Shown: positions 7,847-25,334 of the stretch, piece by piece
Numbering within the stretch: the first letter of the stretch is position 1
Layout: the number at the start of each line of letters is the position of its first letter
Assembly: GCA_003666385.1 (NCBI GenBank)
Contig: QPIN01000056.1
Span: 1-64,000, forward strand
DNA from: Methylococcales symbiont of Hymedesmia sp. n. MRB-2018
GTDB lineage: Bacteria; Pseudomonadota; Gammaproteobacteria; Methylococcales; Methylomonadaceae
DNA: 64,000 nucleotides
Direction: 5' to 3'
The notes under the pieces: model-generated
The model's database searches: none
Seen by the model: the letters and a program-made list of their open reading frames with translations, nothing else
Told to the model about the DNA's origin: nothing
Position numbers and translations under genes: made by a program

Positions 7847-10800
7847 ATGCACACAAAATTTTTTACTAATACTAAAGAAAATACTTTATTTGAGAAATTA
7901 TCGGGGGTTTTTAAACACAATTTGTCCATCAATAATTTTGATGTTTTAGTGGGTTATTTTCGTTCCTCTGGCTATTTTAAACTGCGTCCATTACTAGAAA
8001 ATGTTGATAATATCCGCATTTTGGTTGGCATTGATGTTGATAAAATCACCAGCAATATGCAACAAAAAGGCTTGGCATTATTTCAGGGCGATGTTAAGCA
8101 AACCACTCAACAATGGGATAAAAAATTTATCGAAGATATACAACAATCGAAATATGATAAAGAAACCGAGCAGGGTATTTTACAATTTATTGAGGATGTT
8201 AAAAGACAAAAAATCCAGCTAAAAGCCCATCCTAGCCGTATTATTCACGCCAAAATTTATATTTTCCGCCCCGATAATTTTAACCAGCACAATGCCGGCA
8301 ATGTAATCACTGGCTCATCTAATCTTAGTGAGGCGGGTTTAGGCACTAAAAAAACCCCTAATTATGAATTTAATGTGCTGCTAAACGATTATGAGGATAT
8401 TCAATTTGCCACCGATGAGTTTGAGAAACTTTGGTCTGAGGGGGTGGAAATATTGCCCGAACAAGTGGAGAAAAGCAAACAAGCCACTTATTTAAACGAC
8501 GACATAAGCCCTTATGAACTTTATCTAAAATGCCTGATTGAGTATTTTGCTGATGATATTGAGTTTGACCCAAATTCCATTCAAGATTTACCCGATGGGT
8601 TTAAGCGTTTATCCTACCAAATGGACGCGGTTAATGAGGGTTGGGGCATGCTCAAAAAGCATAATGGTTTTTTCTTGTCCGATGTGGTGGGCCTGGGTAA
8701 AACAATGATTGCCACTTTAATTGCCAGACAATTTTATTATCACAATAGTTATCCTGATCACCGTTCTAAAATTTTGCTGATTATTCCACCCGCCTTAAAA
8801 CAAAACTGGCAAGATACACTGCAAAAATTCAAACTTGATGATGCGGTAAAAATCATCACTAACGGCAGTTTGCATAAAATTAAAAACGCCAAAGATTTTG
8901 ATATGGTGATTATTGATGAGGCACATAAGTTTCGCAACGATACGGCTGAATCTTACGACCAATTACAAATTATTTGTAAAACGAAAACCTTAGATAATAA
9001 AGCCAAAAAAGTAATGCTGATTTCAGCTACGCCGCTGAATAATCGCCCCGATGATTTATACAATCAAATTTTATTATTTCAGGATGGCAATAACTCTACC
9101 CTTGATTTTTCGTTGGCAAGTTTTTTTAATAAAGCCAAAAGGCAATATAAAGAGATTTTAAAATTAGCCGATGCAAAAAAAGCTGCAATACAAACCAAAA
9201 TATTATATGAAGAAATTAGGCAGCAGGTGATTGATCCACTTATGGTGCGCAGGACTCGCACTGATTTATTAGATAATGTGCGTTATAAAAAAGACTTAAT
9301 TGAACATAATGTCGTTTTCCCAGAAACCACAGCACCAAAGCCTGTTTATTACCAATTAGATGCAGATTTAAATGCGTTATATGACGCAACTATTAAAAAA
9401 ATTCACAACCCAGAACAAAAGCAAACAGGGTTATTGCATACGCGATACCGAGCTTTGCATTACTTAAAACCAGAATTCAAGCAAAACTACACGAGGGCTG
9501 ATTTTATTGCTGATCGTTTGGTTGGTATTATGAAAACGCTACTGCTGAAACGAATGGATAGCAGTTTTTATGCTTTTAAACAAACCTTAAAGCGTTTTAT
9601 AAAATCATCTGAAACCATGCTCAAGATGATTAAAAACAATCAAATCATCATTGCTCCAAAAATCAATATCAGCGACTATATTCTCAACGCCAAAGAAGAG
9701 GAGTTAATGGAGTTATTGGCGGATGAAAGCCTAACTAATCCCAATATTATCATTTGCACAAAAGATGATTTTGAAGCAGGTTTTGTTGAGGGCGTTAAGC
9801 ATGATTATGAGATGTTGAAACAATTAAAATCCGACTGGGACAAAATAACTAAAGACCCAAAAATTGATGAGTTTTTAACCCAATTACCAAACTTTTTAGT
9901 AGCAGAAAACAACCCAGAACAGAAAATCATCATTTTCACCGAAAGCACTGATACCATGAATTATTTATCACAAAACATCGCAACTACCGATTTTAATGAT
10001 AAAACTTTAGTGGTTAATGCCAGCAACCGCAATCAACTAAAGCAAACCATCAGTGAGAATTTTGATGCCAATATCAACGCCCAAGACAAGAAAAATGCTT
10101 ATCAAATTATTCTAAGCACCGATGTTTTAGCAGAGGGCATAAACTTGCACCGTGCCAATACGGTAATCAATTATGACACCCCGTGGAACGCCACCAAACT
10201 CATGCAACGTATTGGGCGAGTCAATCGTATTGGGCAAGCGGCAAGCCATATTTTTGTGTATAACTTTTATCCCACCGCACAAATTAACGATGATATTGGG
10301 CTGGAAAAAAAGGCATTGATTAAACTGCAAGCTTTTCATAGTGCATTAGGCGAAGATTCACAAATTTATTCCACTGATGAGCAGATCGGTAGCTATGGTA
10401 TTTTTGATGAAAACATTCAAGCAGAAAAAAACCAAACCCTGCCTTTTTTAGAAGAAATAAGAGGCTATAGAAAACACAATCCAGAAAACTATAAACGCAT
10501 TAAAGACCTGCCCAGCAAAGTCAGAAATGCGGTTAAAAACGCCACCCATAAAGACGGCACTCTGGTTTTTGCTCGTACCGAGGACAAAGGTAGTAGCCGA
10601 TTTTATATGATGCAAGCAGACCGTAAAATTGATAATTACAGCTTTATCCAAACTGCCCAATTATTAAAATGCACTCCAGACACCAAAGCCGCACCACTGC
10701 ACCAACAACACTACCCACAAGTTTTATCCGCATTGGATAAGTTTCAAGGTGAAATCGAGCAAAATATCCTCGACCAAACTCAAAATAAATCGCTATCTCC

Positions 10801-11104
10801 GCAAGATAAAAAAGCCATTCATTTTTTAAAATCCATCACCAACCTACCTAATGCCAACCCCGATGAACGGGAAAAACTAAGCCAAGCAATTAAACAAACA
10901 GAAAATAAAGCCTTTCCAAACCTCACCAGAGACATTAATAAATTGGCAAAAAATATCAAAGGCATAAAGCCGATTGTGGTGTTAGAAAACGCCTTAAAAA
11001 TTATTGGAAAATACGATATTAACCAGCATATACAAGCCGACATCGCAGAGGAAAGTGCCCAAGACACTCAGCCAATTATTGTAATATCCCAATCTTATGT
11101 CTAA
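7847..11104 (+). CDS. SNF2-family helicase with N-terminal PLD-like nuclease domain
   Basis: N-terminal HAKIYIF...GSSNLSEAGL (HKD/PLD-like), DVVGLGKT Walker A, IIDEAHKFRN, ISATPLNN, QRIGRVNRIGQ. Confidence 0.85.
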   Translation: MHTKFFTNTKENTLFEKLSGVFKHNLSINNFDVLVGYFRSSGYFKLRPLLENVDNIRILVGIDVDKITSNMQQKGLALFQGDVKQTTQQWDKKFIEDIQQSKYDKETEQGILQFIEDVKRQKIQLKAHPSRIIHAKIYIFRPDNFNQHNAGNVITGSSNLSEAGLGTKKTPNYEFNVLLNDYEDIQFATDEFEKLWSEGVEILPEQVEKSKQATYLNDDISPYELYLKCLIEYFADDIEFDPNSIQDLPDGFKRLSYQMDAVNEGWGMLKKHNGFFLSDVVGLGKTMIATLIARQFYYHNSYPDHRSKILLIIPPALKQNWQDTLQKFKLDDAVKIITNGSLHKIKNAKDFDMVIIDEAHKFRNDTAESYDQLQIICKTKTLDNKAKKVMLISATPLNNRPDDLYNQILLFQDGNNSTLDFSLASFFNKAKRQYKEILKLADAKKAAIQTKILYEEIRQQVIDPLMVRRTRTDLLDNVRYKKDLIEHNVVFPETTAPKPVYYQLDADLNALYDATIKKIHNPEQKQTGLLHTRYRALHYLKPEFKQNYTRADFIADRLVGIMKTLLLKRMDSSFYAFKQTLKRFIKSSETMLKMIKNNQIIIAPKINISDYILNAKEEELMELLADESLTNPNIIICTKDDFEAGFVEGVKHDYEMLKQLKSDWDKITKDPKIDEFLTQLPNFLVAENNPEQKIIIFTESTDTMNYLSQNIATTDFNDKTLVVNASNRNQLKQTISENFDANINAQDKKNAYQIILSTDVLAEGINLHRANTVINYDTPWNATKLMQRIGRVNRIGQAASHIFVYNFYPTAQINDDIGLEKKALIKLQAFHSALGEDSQIYSTDEQIGSYGIFDENIQAEKNQTLPFLEEIRGYRKHNPENYKRIKDLPSKVRNAVKNATHKDGTLVFARTEDKGSSRFYMMQADRKIDNYSFIQTAQLLKCTPDTKAAPLHQQHYPQVLSALDKFQGEIEQNILDQTQNKSLSPQDKKAIHFLKSITNLPNANPDEREKLSQAIKQTENKAFPNLTRDINKLAKNIKGIKPIVVLENALKIIGKYDINQHIQADIAEESAQDTQPIIVISQSYV

Positions 11105-17902: not shown

Positions 17903-19008
17903 ATGAAAACATTAAATACCAATTTACATAAGGCTAATAAAGCCAAGAAAGATGAGTTTTATACTCAATTAGCGGATATTGAAAAAGAAGTAAAGCATTA
18001 TAAAAAACACTTTAAAAATAAAGTGGTGCTGTGTAATTGTGATGATCCAAGAGTGAGTAATTTTTTTCATTATTTTTCTTACAATTTTGAAAGTTAGAGC
18101 TTAAAAAGTTGATTGCTACTTGCTATAAAAATCAACAGATGGATTTATTCAGCCAACACGATTGTGAAAAAGCCATTTATTTAGAATACGAAGGCGATAA
18201 AAATAACAACAAAATCCCTGATACTGAGGAAATTGGTATTAAGCATTTTAAAGGCGATGGTGATTTTAGAAGCGATGAATGTATAAAATTATTAAAACAA
18301 GCCGATATTGTGCTTACTAATCCGCCGTTTTCTCTGTTTAGAGAGTATGTTACACAGTTGGTAGAATACGATAAAAAGTTTTTGATTATTGGCAATATGA
18401 ATGCCATAACCTATAAAGAAACTTTTAAATTGATTAAGGAAAATAAATTATGGTTAGGTGCCAGTATTCATAGTGGCGATAGAGAGTTTGGCGTTCCCAA
18501 AGATTATCCATTACATGCAGCTAGTAGTAGAATTGATGAAAATGGCAATAAATTTATCAGAGTTAAAGGGGTGCGTTGGTTTACTAATTTAGACTACAAA
18601 GAAAGACACGAAGACCTGATTTTGTATAAAACCTACAACCAAGCAGACTACCCAAAATACGATAATTACGATGCGATTAATGTGGATAAAACCAAAGAAA
18701 TACCTGTGGACTATAAAGGTGCTATGGGTGTGCCGATTACCTTTATGGATAAATATAATCCTGAGCAGTTTGAGATTTTAGGGATAACTGCTGGGCGAGA
18801 TGAGTTTGAGTGTCGTCCTACAAAACGCTATAAAAATGCTATCCAAGTCAATCAAAACGGCTCCACAGCAAATGGGAGTAAGGCAAATACGCGGTCAACG
18901 CTACTCTATTCCAGAAAACCCAACGGGACTTATTATACTGCTGATAATGTAAATGGATATTTATCTATACTATACGCAAGAATTTTAATCAAAAACAAAA
19001 AACTATAA
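17903..19008 (+). pseudogene. EcoRI-family adenine-specific DNA methyltransferase, split by a single-nucleotide frameshift
   Basis: ORF 17903-18097 (NKAKKDEFYTQLADIEKEVKHYKKHFKNKVVLCNCDDPRVSNFFHYF) and ORF 18109-19008 (ADIVLTNPPFSLFREYV). Adding one A after GAA near 18091 joins the frames as NFEKLELKKLIATCYKNQ. Confidence 0.8.
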
Positions 19009-19417: not shown

Positions 19418-19804
19418 TCAAAACATGAATTAGAATATTTGCGGGGGAATTTTTCCACCACAAACAATACTATGCAATTATCTAAAACCAGAGTTTTACC
19501 CAAAGCCTTTACCGAAAAAGGACTCTATATGTTAGCCACTATCATAAAATCAAAACAAGCAACAAACGCAACACTACAAATTATTGAAACTTTTGCTAAA
19601 GTGAGGGAGTTTAGCAATGTAGCCAAAAGTCTGGCAACAGAAAAAAGTGAGCTTAAAAAACAGAGCCTTATCAAGAAAAGCGGGCAACTTATTGGCGATA
19701 TTCTCAATCAAGAATTTGCTGATGACACCAGTAGCGAAACAACCATTGAACTGAACTTAGCCATGATAAAAATTAAGCATAAAATAATCAAAAACAAAAA
19801 ATAA
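19262..19804 (+). CDS. ORF6N domain-containing protein
   Basis: FIIELRSQKVILDSDVAKIYGVETRDINKAVKNNLDKFPDGYIF ... RVLPKAFTEKGLYMLATIIKS, typical ORF6N. Confidence 0.8.
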   Translation: MQSIEPFIIELRSQKVILDSDVAKIYGVETRDINKAVKNNLDKFPDGYIFKLSKHELEYLRGNFSTTNNTMQLSKTRVLPKAFTEKGLYMLATIIKSKQATNATLQIIETFAKVREFSNVAKSLATEKSELKKQSLIKKSGQLIGDILNQEFADDTSSETTIELNLAMIKIKHKIIKNKK

Positions 19805-20889
19805 TGGAGATAAAACTCAAAGAAATAACAGTGGCTGATTTAGTCAAAGATTACGCCGATGATACTGCCAGCGGTCAGGTTGTGGGCTATGGCGGCAAAT
19901 TAGATATTCGCCCTAAATATCAACGCGAATTTATTTACAAAGATGAGCAAAGAAGTGCCGTGATTGACACTTTAACTAAAGATTTTCCCTTAAATGTAAT
20001 GTATTGGGCAGTGCGTGATGACGGTGGTTTTGAAGTGATTGATGGGCAACAACGCACTATTTCGGTATGCCAGTATGTTAATGGCGATTTTTCTTATAAA
20101 GAGTTGTATTTTAATAATCTGCAAGATGATAAGCAAGCACAAATCCTTAACTATAAACTCTCAATTTATCAGTGTAGCGGCAGCGATAGTGAAAAATTAG
20201 AGTGGTTTAAAACCATCAATATCGCAGGTGAAAAACTTACCAACCAAGAATTAAGAAACGCCGTTTATTCTGGTGCGTGGGTGTCTGATGCGAAACGATA
20301 TTTTAGTAGAAATGGCTGTGCCGCTCACAATATTGCCAATAAATATTTAACAGGTTCATCAATCAGGCAAGATTATTTAGAAACTGCGATTAAATGGATT
20401 TCTGATAATAAAATTGAAGATTATATGGCAACAAATCAGCACAAACCCAAGGCAGATGAATTATGGCTGTATTTTCAAAATGTAATAAATTGGGTTGAGA
20501 TAGTTTTTGCAAAATATCGCAAAGAAATGAAAGGCGTTGATTTTGGTTTTTTATACAATCAGTTTAAAGATGATAAATTTGATTCAGATAAATTAGAGGC
20601 AGAAATAGCAAAATTGATGCAAGATGACGATGTTACTAAAAAATCAGGTATTTATCCATTTGCTCTTACAGGAAAAGAAAAATACCTCAACATCCGTGCA
20701 TTTACCGACAATCAAAAACGCGAGACATACGAAAAGCAAAAAGGCATTTGCAAAAAATGTAAAAAAGAATTCACCCTAGTAGAAATGGAAGCCGACCACA
20801 TAAAACCTTGGCACGAAGGCGGAAAAACCATTACTAAAAATTGCCAGATGTTATGTAAAGACGATAATCGCAGGAAGTCTGGGAAGTGA
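19804..20889 (+). CDS. DUF262 (GmrSD-like) protein with C-terminal HNH endonuclease
   Basis: KYQREFIY, VIDGQQRTIS (DGQQR) and a C-terminal CKKCKKEF...EADHIKPWHEGGKT...NCQMLCKDDN HNH. Confidence 0.85.
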   Translation: MEIKLKEITVADLVKDYADDTASGQVVGYGGKLDIRPKYQREFIYKDEQRSAVIDTLTKDFPLNVMYWAVRDDGGFEVIDGQQRTISVCQYVNGDFSYKELYFNNLQDDKQAQILNYKLSIYQCSGSDSEKLEWFKTINIAGEKLTNQELRNAVYSGAWVSDAKRYFSRNGCAAHNIANKYLTGSSIRQDYLETAIKWISDNKIEDYMATNQHKPKADELWLYFQNVINWVEIVFAKYRKEMKGVDFGFLYNQFKDDKFDSDKLEAEIAKLMQDDDVTKKSGIYPFALTGKEKYLNIRAFTDNQKRETYEKQKGICKKCKKEFTLVEMEADHIKPWHEGGKTITKNCQMLCKDDNRRKSGK

Positions 20890-20897
20890 AAAATATT
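20869..20897 (+). repeat. 29-bp direct repeat, copy 1
   Basis: CGCAGGAAGTCTGGGAAGTGAAAAATATT, identical to 25179-25207. Confidence 0.9.
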
Positions 20898-20899
20898 GA

Positions 20900-21094
20900 A
20901 TTAATGGGGACAGGCTACTTTTTAGGGTGTAATACCAATCACCAAAATAAATCACCCATCTAGCATTCATATTTGCACCAACTATAAGCACTATCTGAGC
21001 GATTTATTTTGGTGATTGGTATAATCCAGGTAAAAAAGGATAGCATCCACATTTGCATGGATTACACCCTAAAAAGTAGCCTGTCCCCATTAAT
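20900..21094. mobile_element. MITE-like element with nested perfect inverted repeats
   Basis: Outer 34-bp perfect IR ATTAATGGGGACAGGCTACTTTTTAGGGTGTAAT (20900-20933 / 21061-21094). Inner 22-bp perfect IR ATACCAATCACCAAAATAAATC (20932-20953 / 21001-21022). Confidence 0.85.
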
Positions 21095-21111
21095 ACACAA
21101 AGAGGTAAAAA

Positions 21112-21345
21112 ATGTTAAGCACTGCCCATAGAACCAATGTTGTCTTAGATGAAAACATCGTCCAAGAAGCCCTAAAACTCAGCCAAATAAAAACTAAACG
21201 TGCCTTGATAGACACCGCCCTAAAAGAGTTTATTGCCAATCATAAAAAGCCAAATATTATGGATTTATTGGGCATGGGCAGTATTGATAAGGATTATGAT
21301 TACAAAGCATTACGCGGTAGAGACCACCTGCCAAAGTTAAAATAA
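21112..21345 (+). CDS. vapB: VapB-family antitoxin
   Basis: 77 aa; RTNVVLDENIVQEALKLSQIKTKRALIDTALKEFI, immediately upstream of a PIN toxin. Confidence 0.8.
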   Translation: MLSTAHRTNVVLDENIVQEALKLSQIKTKRALIDTALKEFIANHKKPNIMDLLGMGSIDKDYDYKALRGRDHLPKLK

Positions 21346-21347
21346 TT

Positions 21348-21743
21348 GTGTATTTAATAGATTCATCGGTTTGGATAGATGGCATCAACGGCAAAGCCAA
21401 GACAGTTAAATTTCTCAGACAACTGTCGCCAGAGGCATTAGGGATAAATTTACTCATTTATACTGAGGTATTGCAAGGGGCAAGCACTCAGAAATTGCTT
21501 AATGTGCAACAATCCTATTTATCGGCACAGCCTTTCTACGGCTTTCAAAACGATAAAATCAGCCATCAACAAGCGGCTAATATTTATAGAAAATGTCGTC
21601 AAAATGGCGTTACACCACGTTCCACTATAGATTGCCTCATCGCCCAATGTGCCATAGAAAATGATTTAATCTTATTACACAATGATAAAGATTTTGTAAA
21701 AATCGCCAGTGTAATGCCCAATTTACAACAAACAGCCATTTAA
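21348..21743 (+). CDS. vapC: VapC-family PIN-domain ribonuclease toxin
   Basis: [12 protein letters not shown], conserved acidic PIN residues, [23 protein letters not shown]. Confidence 0.85.
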
Positions 21744-21744
21744 T

Positions 21745-23067
21745 ATGGATTTTAAGCAAGCCTACAACCAACCCAATTATCTTAATTTTTTAAGCGAAAA
21801 GTTTAATTTTTCTAAAACCTTAACGCCTATTACAATCAACAATACAGAGGTTAAAACCTTTAAGTCATTAGGATATATAACAACGGCTGATGACAAACAA
21901 TTACCCGTTTTTGAAATCCACATCAAACCCAATACCAAATTATCACGCAATCGGGCTGGCTTGCGCAATCTAGTTGCCAAACAAATCCCACCAGAAGATG
22001 GCGCTTTAGCAGTTTATGTGGATGGTGAAAACAAACAGTGGCGTTTTAGTTTTATTGCCATTGAATATAAATTCACCGAAGATGGTTTAGAAAAACAGCA
22101 AACAGCCAGTAAACGCTTTACCTATCTTTTAGGTGAAAATGCCCAAATTAGAACTGCCAAACAGCGTTTTGAAACCCTTAATAAAACCTCAACATTAGCA
22201 GACTTAAAAGCCGCTTTTGCGGTTGAGCAACTTAACAAGGATTTTTATAAACAATTATACGATTGGTATAACCACGCCAAAGAAAAAGTGATTTTCCCCA
22301 ATGACGAAAACGCCAAAAGCCATATTGAGGATAGTTTAATCCGCTTTTTAACACGGATTTTATTCGTCTGGTTTCTCAAAGAAAAACACCTAATTAACAA
22401 AGATTTATTTGATTTAACCAAACTCAAAAACTTGATTAAATATGAAGAAGACAGCAGTTTCTACAAAGCTATTTTACAAAATCTATTTTTTGCCACGCTA
22501 AATCGTCAAATAAAAGACCGTAGTTTTCGCCGCACCACCAATGGCAAGCCCAATAACACCAATTATTTAGCCGCCAATATTTATCGTTATCAAAATTATT
22601 TTCAAAACAACGATGAGCAAGAAATTATGGATTTATTCAAGCAAACCCCGTTTTTAAACGGCGGCTTATTTGAATGTTTAGACCGCGAGGCAACAGATGA
22701 AGAAAAATCGGCCTACGACCAAGACAAAACCGTCCGCAAAATTGGCAGTGCCATTCGCATTGATGGCCTTTCTGATAGAAAAAATAATGCATTAGATTTT
22801 GACAATGCCTTATTTTTTAACACTAACGAAACAGGCTTATGTGATTTATTCAAGCAATACCAATTTACCGTAGAAGACGCACTCACCGATGCAGGATTGC
22901 AAGCAAGCCACGCCGAAGTAACCATGGAACCCGCCACCCGCGTCGAACTCAACCTCGTCAACGCCGAAAAATTTATGAAACTAATTGAACGCCTAGAAGA
23001 CCTAGACGACACCCAAGAGGTTTATCACAATGCTGATATTTCTGATGAAGTGATGGCTCAGTTATAA
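21745..23067 (+). CDS. Chimeric ORF: N-terminal region of a type IIG (Eco57I-like) R-M protein joined to the C-terminus of YebC
   Basis: Residues 1 to about 375 resemble Eco57I-type N-terminal regions. Last 64 aa [63 protein letters not shown] match the YebC/PmpR C-terminus. Confidence 0.75.
22876..23067 (+). pseudogene. yebC: yebC 3' fragment in the chimeric ORF
   Basis: Translated match to the YebC C-terminal domain ending ISDEVMAQL*; local base composition is higher in GC than the preceding segment. Confidence 0.75.
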
Positions 23068-23076
23068 AATTATTCC

Positions 23077-25143
23077 ATGCCAAAAATAAAAGACATTCCA
23101 AAAGTTGAACGCCCAAGAGAGCGATTATTGCAAAAAGGCGCTAACGCATTATCCAAAACCGACCTTTTAGCGATTTTGCTTGGAAGTGGCATTAAAGGTG
23201 TAAATGTAGAAGAGTTATCTACTCAGATTATTAATAAATTTGGCAAAAATTTTCTTAATGTCAGCATTAAAGATTTAACATCTGTTAAAGGTATCGGCGA
23301 AGTTAAGGCGCTGCAAATACATTCCGCTATTGAACTGGTTAAGCGTTTTGATGAGCCAAAAAATACCAATCAATTAACCTTTATGGATTTTTGTGCTGGG
23401 GTTGGTGGTGGTCGTCTGGCTTTAGATAACCTAGGTATGCAGTGTGTTGGATTTTCTGAAATTGATGAAAATGCTGAAAAAACTTATCGTCTATTATTCA
23501 ATGATAAAGGCAAAAATTACGGTGATTTAACCAAAATAAATGCAGATAAATTGCCTGATTTTGATGTGATGATTGCAGGTTTTCCTTGTCAGGCTTTTTC
23601 TGTTTTAGGCAAGAGGCAAGGCATTTATGACAAGGTGCAAAAGAAAGGGGAAATCATTTTTCACTTGATAGAATTTTTAATTGCAAAGTCTGTTAAATTT
23701 TTTATTTTTGAAAATGTAAAGGGTTTGATAGGTCACGATAACGGCTTAACTTTAAAAATAATTTTAGATGAATTAGATAAAGCTGGATATTTTGTTAAAT
23801 GGCAAATGTTAAATAGCATTGATTATGGCACGCCACAAATGAGAGAGCGTATTTATTTTGTAGGAGTAAAAAAGGAACTGTTAGGAGATAATAACTTTGA
23901 TTTTGATTTTCCTCAGAAGTTGACTAAAAAATCCAATGTAACTGATTTTTTAATTGATAATGTAGAACTAGATTTTAACGATAAGCAGCAAACATACAAA
24001 ACCTTTCAAAGATACTTAGAAAACAAATACAATAAAGATAAATTTAGCGTTGCAGAATTATTAAAAGAGGAAAATTTGGTTATAGATACTCGGCAATCAG
24101 ATTTAAGGAAATATTACAACAGAGTGCCAACTTTAAGGCTAGGAAGACACGGTATTTTGTATGTTAGAAATGGTAAATTTAGAAAATTATCTGGTTATGA
24201 ATCTTTTTTATTACAGGGGTTTGGTAAAGAAAAAGCCCAAAAAGCTAGAGACAATATTTTAGATATACACTTACTAAAACAAGCTGGCAATGCAATGACT
24301 GTTAGCACGGTTCAGGCGATTGCCGCTAAGGTGTTGAAGTTTATCAATAATTTAGAGATGGTCAATATGAACAAAAAACAAAAAATAGGTTCAAAGACAG
24401 CGAAAGACGGGTTTAAAAATGAATTGGGTGTTGTTGACGCTTTTAATTGCTGGAAAACTAATGATTCTGCTCAAAAATGGTTAATGGCTATGGATTACCA
24501 TTTAGAAGATATTGAGCATGTTGAAGCCCATCAAATTAGCGGATATAAAGCAGATGTACAAGTAGAAATTAAAATATCAATCAAATTAAAACATTTAACA
24601 GATGTGCAAAACTTACAAGTTAAATTGGTAACTAATGATGAAGATAAAAAATTATCAGGCAAAAATCAAATTGATAAAAGATGGGTGGAAACCTATCAGG
24701 AATTGTGGAATATTCCTAAAAATGTGGTAAAAATTTTAAAGCACTTTACAGGCGAATTACCGCCGCATATAGATAACGCAAGAGACCCTAGGCGGATGTT
24801 TATTAATGAATTATCGCAGCAGGATAGAGTAGCATTATTTGATTTTTTAAAAGCTAATCAGTTACTAATAGTTAGTGATATATTAAAAGGTAGAGGTAAA
24901 CTTGCTGCTGAATGGATGTTGGTAATTGTAAGAAATAGAGACTATAAAATCACTCACTGGGCATTAAAATCCATCAATGTTGTTTGTAATTTTTTTGGCA
25001 ATGGTGAGATAGAAATATCACCACAAGGAAGCATTAAAATTGGTAAGATTTTAATGCAAAGAAAAGGCGGAGATGGTGGCAGGCCTAGTGCAAATATGTT
25101 GCAATTTAACATAGACCCAACAAAATTAATAGACATAATGTAA
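23077..25143 (+). CDS. Three-domain fusion: RadC/UPF0758 N-terminal HhH domain + C5-cytosine methyltransferase + HinP1I-like type II restriction endonuclease
   Basis: RPRERLLQKGANALSKTDLLAILLGSGIKG...VKGIGEVKALQI (RadC N-term); FMDFCAGVGGGRLAL, GFPCQAFSVLGK, ENVKGL, QMRERIYFVG, QAGNAMTVSTVQAIA (C5 MTase); GSKTAKDGFKNE...HFTGELPPH...RRMF...LKGRGKLAAEW...QRKGGDGGRPSANMLQFNIDPT (as recalled for R.HinP1I). Confidence 0.85.
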   Translation: MPKIKDIPKVERPRERLLQKGANALSKTDLLAILLGSGIKGVNVEELSTQIINKFGKNFLNVSIKDLTSVKGIGEVKALQIHSAIELVKRFDEPKNTNQLTFMDFCAGVGGGRLALDNLGMQCVGFSEIDENAEKTYRLLFNDKGKNYGDLTKINADKLPDFDVMIAGFPCQAFSVLGKRQGIYDKVQKKGEIIFHLIEFLIAKSVKFFIFENVKGLIGHDNGLTLKIILDELDKAGYFVKWQMLNSIDYGTPQMRERIYFVGVKKELLGDNNFDFDFPQKLTKKSNVTDFLIDNVELDFNDKQQTYKTFQRYLENKYNKDKFSVAELLKEENLVIDTRQSDLRKYYNRVPTLRLGRHGILYVRNGKFRKLSGYESFLLQGFGKEKAQKARDNILDIHLLKQAGNAMTVSTVQAIAAKVLKFINNLEMVNMNKKQKIGSKTAKDGFKNELGVVDAFNCWKTNDSAQKWLMAMDYHLEDIEHVEAHQISGYKADVQVEIKISIKLKHLTDVQNLQVKLVTNDEDKKLSGKNQIDKRWVETYQELWNIPKNVVKILKHFTGELPPHIDNARDPRRMFINELSQQDRVALFDFLKANQLLIVSDILKGRGKLAAEWMLVIVRNRDYKITHWALKSINVVCNFFGNGEIEISPQGSIKIGKILMQRKGGDGGRPSANMLQFNIDPTKLIDIM

Positions 25144-25178
25144 ATCTTTTATGGGGATAGAGCAAAGGTTGTAATAAC

Positions 25179-25207
25179 CGCAGGAAGTCTGGGAAGTGAA
25201 AAATATT
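25179..25207 (+). repeat. 29-bp direct repeat, copy 2
   Basis: Identical to 20869-20897. Confidence 0.9.
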
Positions 25208-25253
25208 AAAGGTAAAAATGAATAGCGAAGAATACGGTTGGCATATTGGCGAC

Positions 25254-25334
25254 GAAACCAAAATTGACTAGATGGTCTATAAACTCTACAACCTAAGCAC
25301 CGCTGAAATCAAAATCATTGAGGCTGAAAAATGA
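25254..25334 (+). pseudogene. Type IIG C-terminal tail remnant A
   Basis: ETKID*MVYKLYNLSTAEIKIIEAEK*; the stop TGA overlaps the ATG of the following TPR gene. Confidence 0.7.

Follow-up and report, generated by a model that had tools for sequence, protein, structure and literature searches.

Restriction-modification (R-M) systems have been described as mobile elements tied to genome rearrangement (Kobayashi 2001, as cited in PMC4612132), and IS-linked movement of such systems has been reported (PMC3031569). The genomes of the sulfur-oxidising symbionts of Bathymodiolus are enriched in R-M systems and have lost synteny, and the R-M systems have been proposed to take part in this reshuffling (PMC4612132). 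The locus described here is like the mobile R-M systems in that an R-M pair has a foreign location and is bordered by broken genes. It differs from them (Kobayashi 2001; PMC3031569) in that the borders showed neither an IS nor a long target duplication and in that the incoming edge is the end of a donor housekeeping gene joined in frame. Compared with the Bathymodiolus symbionts, the junction is placed here at the level of the base, the genome is probably of methanotroph type, and the probable donor lies on the thiotroph side.

Two protein families meet at this junction. The N-terminal 377 residues of the chimera correspond to the upstream region of the Eco57I-family methylases (PF07669), among which are type IIG enzymes, BREX PglX and DISARM DrmMI, and its last 65 residues are a clear C-terminus of the YebC/TACO1 family (PF01709). 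Unlike the former, the gene ends ahead of the catalytic core, whereas the intact relative retains Eco57I and TaqI_C domains; its family also accompanies a PLD-SNF2 helicase, both in this island and in Parabacteroides. Unlike the latter, it lacks the N-terminal domain and most of the second/third-domain region.

The window, a stretch of 64,000 nucleotides, belongs to a genome of 2.2 Mb in 63 contigs (G000), and its features are listed in Table 1. The ORF at 21745–23067 (+) starts with ATG and specifies 440 amino acids with no internal stop in the ORF list, so that the original prediction of an open, in-frame composite holds. It follows the Eco57I-family methylase to about residue 377 and then runs through 65 residues of YebC to YebC's own stop. 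The sole Pfam domain detected is PF01709, of which positions 103–160 (model end 160) align with residues 375–430 above the curated cut-off (E-value=8.4e-13); the NCBIfam model PRK00110.1 aligns over its positions 179–243 of 245 with residues 375–439 (2.3e-15). Both bear out the predicted match to YebC. The claim that the YebC/PmpR C-terminal domain is present went too far, the 65 residues being less than a complete domain and covering only the end of the second/third-domain region. Neither TACO1_YebC_N nor complete second and third YebC domains are found in the chimera, while in the intact yebC genes L001 and L072 both Pfam domains are full length. A methyltransferase core (PF07669 / N6_Mtase) and a target-recognition domain in one chain are likewise missing from it.

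The nearest intact methylase is a 1096 amino acid protein of a Cycloclasticus sponge-symbiont assembly (L013:2615–5905), with Eco57I (PF07669), N6_Mtase and TaqI_C domains (Pfam). Residues 1–376 of the chimera match it at 73%, and plasmid homologues in Parabacteroides and Planktothrix at 38% and 32%. The DNA match to L013 stands at 87% across 22601–22877 and is lost beyond 22877, where L013 itself runs on into the methylase core. After an FTVxE-like motif three relatives keep ESTPLD, ENTPFD or ENTPFE, and then DP; the window has DALTDAGL at this place. In the search among relatives the window's genome shares its order with the Cycloclasticus relative; GTDB places Cycloclasticus in the Methylococcales, which would therefore be the order of both. 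Over 790 bp that take in VapBC and the methylase start, 21089–21878 is 97.7% identical in DNA to another Cycloclasticus locus (L014:7345–8134), and such a match to a symbiont of another family suggests recent transfer.

The N-terminal homology to the type IIG/Eco57I family that had been predicted is confirmed by these intact methylases and by PADLOC (PDLC03596/03601, about 30 bits for the chimera). The label 'type IIG' itself is uncertain, since this methylase family pairs with a separate PLD-SNF2 helicase in Parabacteroides and in this island; in Parabacteroides the methylase lies directly 3' of the helicase, which carries a PLD nuclease-type domain. For the intact L013 the best PADLOC models are those of IIG (185 bits), DISARM- and PglX-like models matching more weakly. 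A Pfam search found no nuclease domain in L013, and a PDB sequence search with this protein matched other methylases in their methyltransferase and C-terminal parts only. A conserved N-terminal PD-(D/E)XK nuclease, considered as a surviving activity, is doubtful: in a four-member alignment the E-x-K motif (IEYK) is present in the window and L013, altered in L137 and missing in L138.

The yebC genes of one gammaproteobacterial family, f117, match the window across 22864–23067 at 76–83% DNA identity, and this match overlaps that of the methylase by 14 bases. The methylase reads TTTACCGTAGAAGA here and the yebC of L072 reads TTCACCGTGAAAGA; 11 of the 14 bases are identical, with a longest exact run of five. 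Both parents encode FTV[E/K][E/D] here and share the codon phase, which agrees with the predicted switch at a TVEDAL stretch plausible in either. The window tracks the methylase as far as AAGA, and the breakpoint is therefore placed at about 22874–22877. With f117 relatives' yebC standing in for the true donor sequence, so that the frequencies are indicative, positions drawn at random from the two genes attain the overlap identity in 6.5e-5 of trials (L072) or 1.4e-4 (L044); the more divergent yebC of L046 has just nine of 14 bases in common, which random positions attain in 3.6e-3 of trials. The parents are unrelated and each has an intact form elsewhere; this, an abrupt loss of similarity at the join and only a short, imperfect microhomology support the illegitimate recombination that had been proposed. 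A join comes out in frame by chance one time in three; here the frame is open to yebC's stop because the join fell in a short homology of the same codon phase.

The resident gene is not the partner. An intact yebC, the gene that the original prediction had put forward for comparison, lies on contig 34 of the genome, with ruvC and ruvA (recognised by eye) next in order; it has 48% amino acid identity to the fragment, and a DNA search of the genome revealed no second copy. In a class-wide search the fragment showed 82–86% amino acid identity to members of f117 and 66% to the next best family. A tree of 53 rows, which resolves its position to the level of the family, nests it within f117 with 100/100 support, the genome's own yebC standing far off. 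The yebC stop and the bases after it (TAAAATTATT) are common to the window and G729, an f117 genome. Judged by this affinity, the yebC piece is that of an f117 donor and not of this genome. We take f117 to be probably the Thioglobaceae (the SUP05/bathymodioline thiotroph group, which includes clam and mussel thiotrophs). Between yebC and purL the f117 genomes are variable: about nine carry other genes there, including by eye toxin-antitoxin, methyltransferase and BRO-type genes, which makes an R-M cassette behind the donor yebC plausible.

The chimera had been noted on its own and is in fact one junction of a multi-part insert in which a yebC end, a radC start and HinP1I-type M and R genes precede a methylase 3' end. 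Nine bases past the yebC stop begins a single frame of 688 codons (23077–25143), in which a RadC N-terminus is followed by M.HinP1I and R.HinP1I. The PF00145 and PF11463 domains occur together at nearly full length, from which a HinP1I-type R-M system is predicted. In the window the M and R genes share one frame, whereas Mycoplasmopsis has them as two distinct, overlapping genes. The genome's own radC is separate, with 38% amino acid identity to the RadC part. Among the genomes searched, the best matches of the RadC start and the HinP1I genes are in f117: G713 has a decayed DNA copy of the HinP1I part (L100:9621–7905; 75% identity) and G720 a fragment. Remnants also occur in G001, which belongs to the genus of the window's genome. 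The methylase 3' end at 25254 has 86.5% DNA identity to L013:5825–5950.

Elsewhere in f117, a full-length RadC (UPF0758_N and JAB) and a C5 methyltransferase form one in-frame fusion (L106:5680–7398, L104:266–1357 and L107:892–2739). A literature search found no paper describing RadC-methyltransferase fusions and none combining R-M systems with microhomology chimeras. The frame at L107:892–2739 (G668) continues into ribosomal protein S5 (rpsE), followed by ribosomal genes and secY, and is either another chimera or an assembly error.

Table 1. Features of the defence island and of the insert, with positions in the window
Feature	Position	Strand	Evidence
PLD-SNF2 helicase	7847-11104		
Methylase start, 51 codons	11986-12138		
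VapB-like antitoxin ORF, upstream of the chimera	21112..21345	+	ORF; VapB/VapC identity by eye
VapC-like toxin ORF	21348..21743	+	ORF and sequence; VapB/VapC identity by eye
N-terminal ~377 codons of Eco57I-family DNA methylase	21745..22877	+	79% DNA identity to L013 over 21763-22877; protein alignment; PADLOC REase_MTase_IIG
Left junction TTTACCGTAGAAGA, overlap of methylase and yebC matches	22864..22877	+	11/14 identity between parents
yebC 3' end of family f117 origin, closing at yebC's own stop	22878..23067	+	PF01709 8.4e-13; 92% aa to L072 of G729; tree nesting
radC 5' end (UPF0758_N), f117-like, without JAB domain	23077..23370	+	PF20582 3.6e-23; 67-71% aa to f117 radC
M.HinP1I-like C5 methyltransferase and R.HinP1I-like endonuclease, one frame, fused to RadC start	23372..25143	+	PF00145 1.6e-66; PF11463 5e-80
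Short copy of 3' end of HNH endonuclease gene (19804-20889)	25174..25210 (37 bp)	+	94.6% to 20864-20900
3' end remnant of Eco57I-family methylase, one stop, right border of insert	25254..25333	+	78% aa to L013 residues 1070-1096

The surrounding island also specifies a BRO-N protein, a C5 methyltransferase, a HamB/PDC-M23B-like helicase, an EcoRI-type methyltransferase, an HNH endonuclease and IetA/IetS. The EcoRI-type methyltransferase gene (17903–19008) is in two ORFs and probably broken. Between the HNH gene and vapB lies an imperfect inverted-repeat element of about 200 bp (20897–21097), and the copy of the HNH gene end in the insert stops where this element begins to border that gene. Copies of the methylase 3' end occur in the window at 25254, 26649, 30710, about 32485 and 37966; after several of them a TPR gene begins, the arrangement being repeated through the island as if at module borders.

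The ORF at 21745–23067 is most probably the left scar of an illegitimate recombination by which an f117-derived R-M cassette replaced the core of the methylase. A segment from an f117 bacterium would have entered a Methylococcales defence island and taken the place of the core in an Eco57I-family methylase gene. It would have brought with it the final 65 codons of yebC, a radC-methyltransferase fusion in shortened form and M and R genes of HinP1I type. At its left side the segment would have joined in phase through the short imperfect homology, presumably by microhomology-mediated joining, leaving the frame open to the stop of yebC. Since a methylase 3' end is found again after the insert, replacement of the core is the simplest reading. 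The right-hand end may derive from the same original gene copy; with 3'-end copies at several positions in the window, the one at 25254 is not necessarily this gene's missing half. The insert was also considered as a phage- or plasmid-borne unit and this was rejected: a related-locus search of viral_contigs with the RadC-M-R protein gave no match, the exact junction 27-mer is absent from that collection, and the plasmid matches listed concern the methylase N-part, YebC or the methyltransferase/HinP1I parts, never RadC with the rest.

Within this replacement the pieces may have come as one unit. The main alternative to import as a unit is a variant of the same explanation, in which the methylase/yebC, yebC/radC and radC/M joins were made separately, here or in earlier hosts. 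This would suit the GC contents of the pieces, which are unequal (yebC 48%, radC 35%, M-R 32%), and the presence of the 37-bp copy of another local gene end at 25174. It would also suit the f117 genomes sampled, none of which places yebC next to such a radC or to HinP1I, and in which the radC of matching kind usually sits 3' of lpdA (in four genomes, by eye). Against it, the yebC, radC and HinP1I pieces are contiguous and have their best matches in one family. We regard assembly in steps as possible, though rather unlikely.

Far less probable is an artefact of assembly or binning, in which reads of a co-occurring f117 organism were joined to this contig. Members of f117 may share hosts with methanotrophic symbionts, and the fragmented genome is possibly a metagenome assembly, but the foreign segment has methylase pieces and island genes on both sides within a contig of 77.8 kb, and its several different joins would require an improbable number of mis-joins. 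Moreover, the yebC-radC-HinP1I order expected of a stray contig was seen in no searched f117 genome, the HinP1I remnants of G001 lie in another genome of the same genus, and the reported contamination is 0.08%.

The least credible reading of all is that the fusion is made as a protein and serves a purpose, for example as an accessory of defence that binds DNA or nucleoprotein, or as a truncated subunit that interferes. There is a 440-codon open frame whose ATG, one base past the VapC-like stop, makes translational coupling plausible, but the protein has no methyltransferase domain, no target-recognition part, YebC only over profile positions 103–160 of 160 and an N-terminal E-x-K that is not conserved across the four aligned members. 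Among the relatives searched no other genome carries the junction, and its exact 27-mer has no match in viral_contigs either.

With neither a methyltransferase core nor a target-recognition part, and with YebC incomplete, the 440 amino acid product would have no function of its own. The frame, free of stops and frameshifts, leaves some room for retention; nothing in it shows selection for the product, and the chimera is most likely to be read as the scar of the replacement. The part of the insert likely kept by selection is the HinP1I M-R unit, with the chimera as a by-product.

The junction is a well-resolved case of known R-M-linked rearrangement and not a new kind of system. A wider conjecture, which we hold to be doubtful, is that in this group of bacteria R-M modules, RadC-methyltransferase fusions included, recurrently carry along the ends of adjacent core genes when they move, and join at gene boundaries by short homologies; this would give rise to recurrent in-frame chimeras of core and defence genes (yebC here and the apparent methyltransferase-rpsE frame of G668), passed between co-resident symbiont lineages.

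As a protein the chimera is probably unimportant, and annotation pipelines should not label it a YebC regulator. The locus is a base-level record of the entry of an R-M cassette into a defence island, in which what was replaced, the rough origin of the cassette and the joining homology can be read. If the explanation is true, it would exemplify DNA transfer across two families of Gammaproteobacteria, and it would bear on the proposal that R-M systems help to reshuffle symbiont genomes (PMC4612132).
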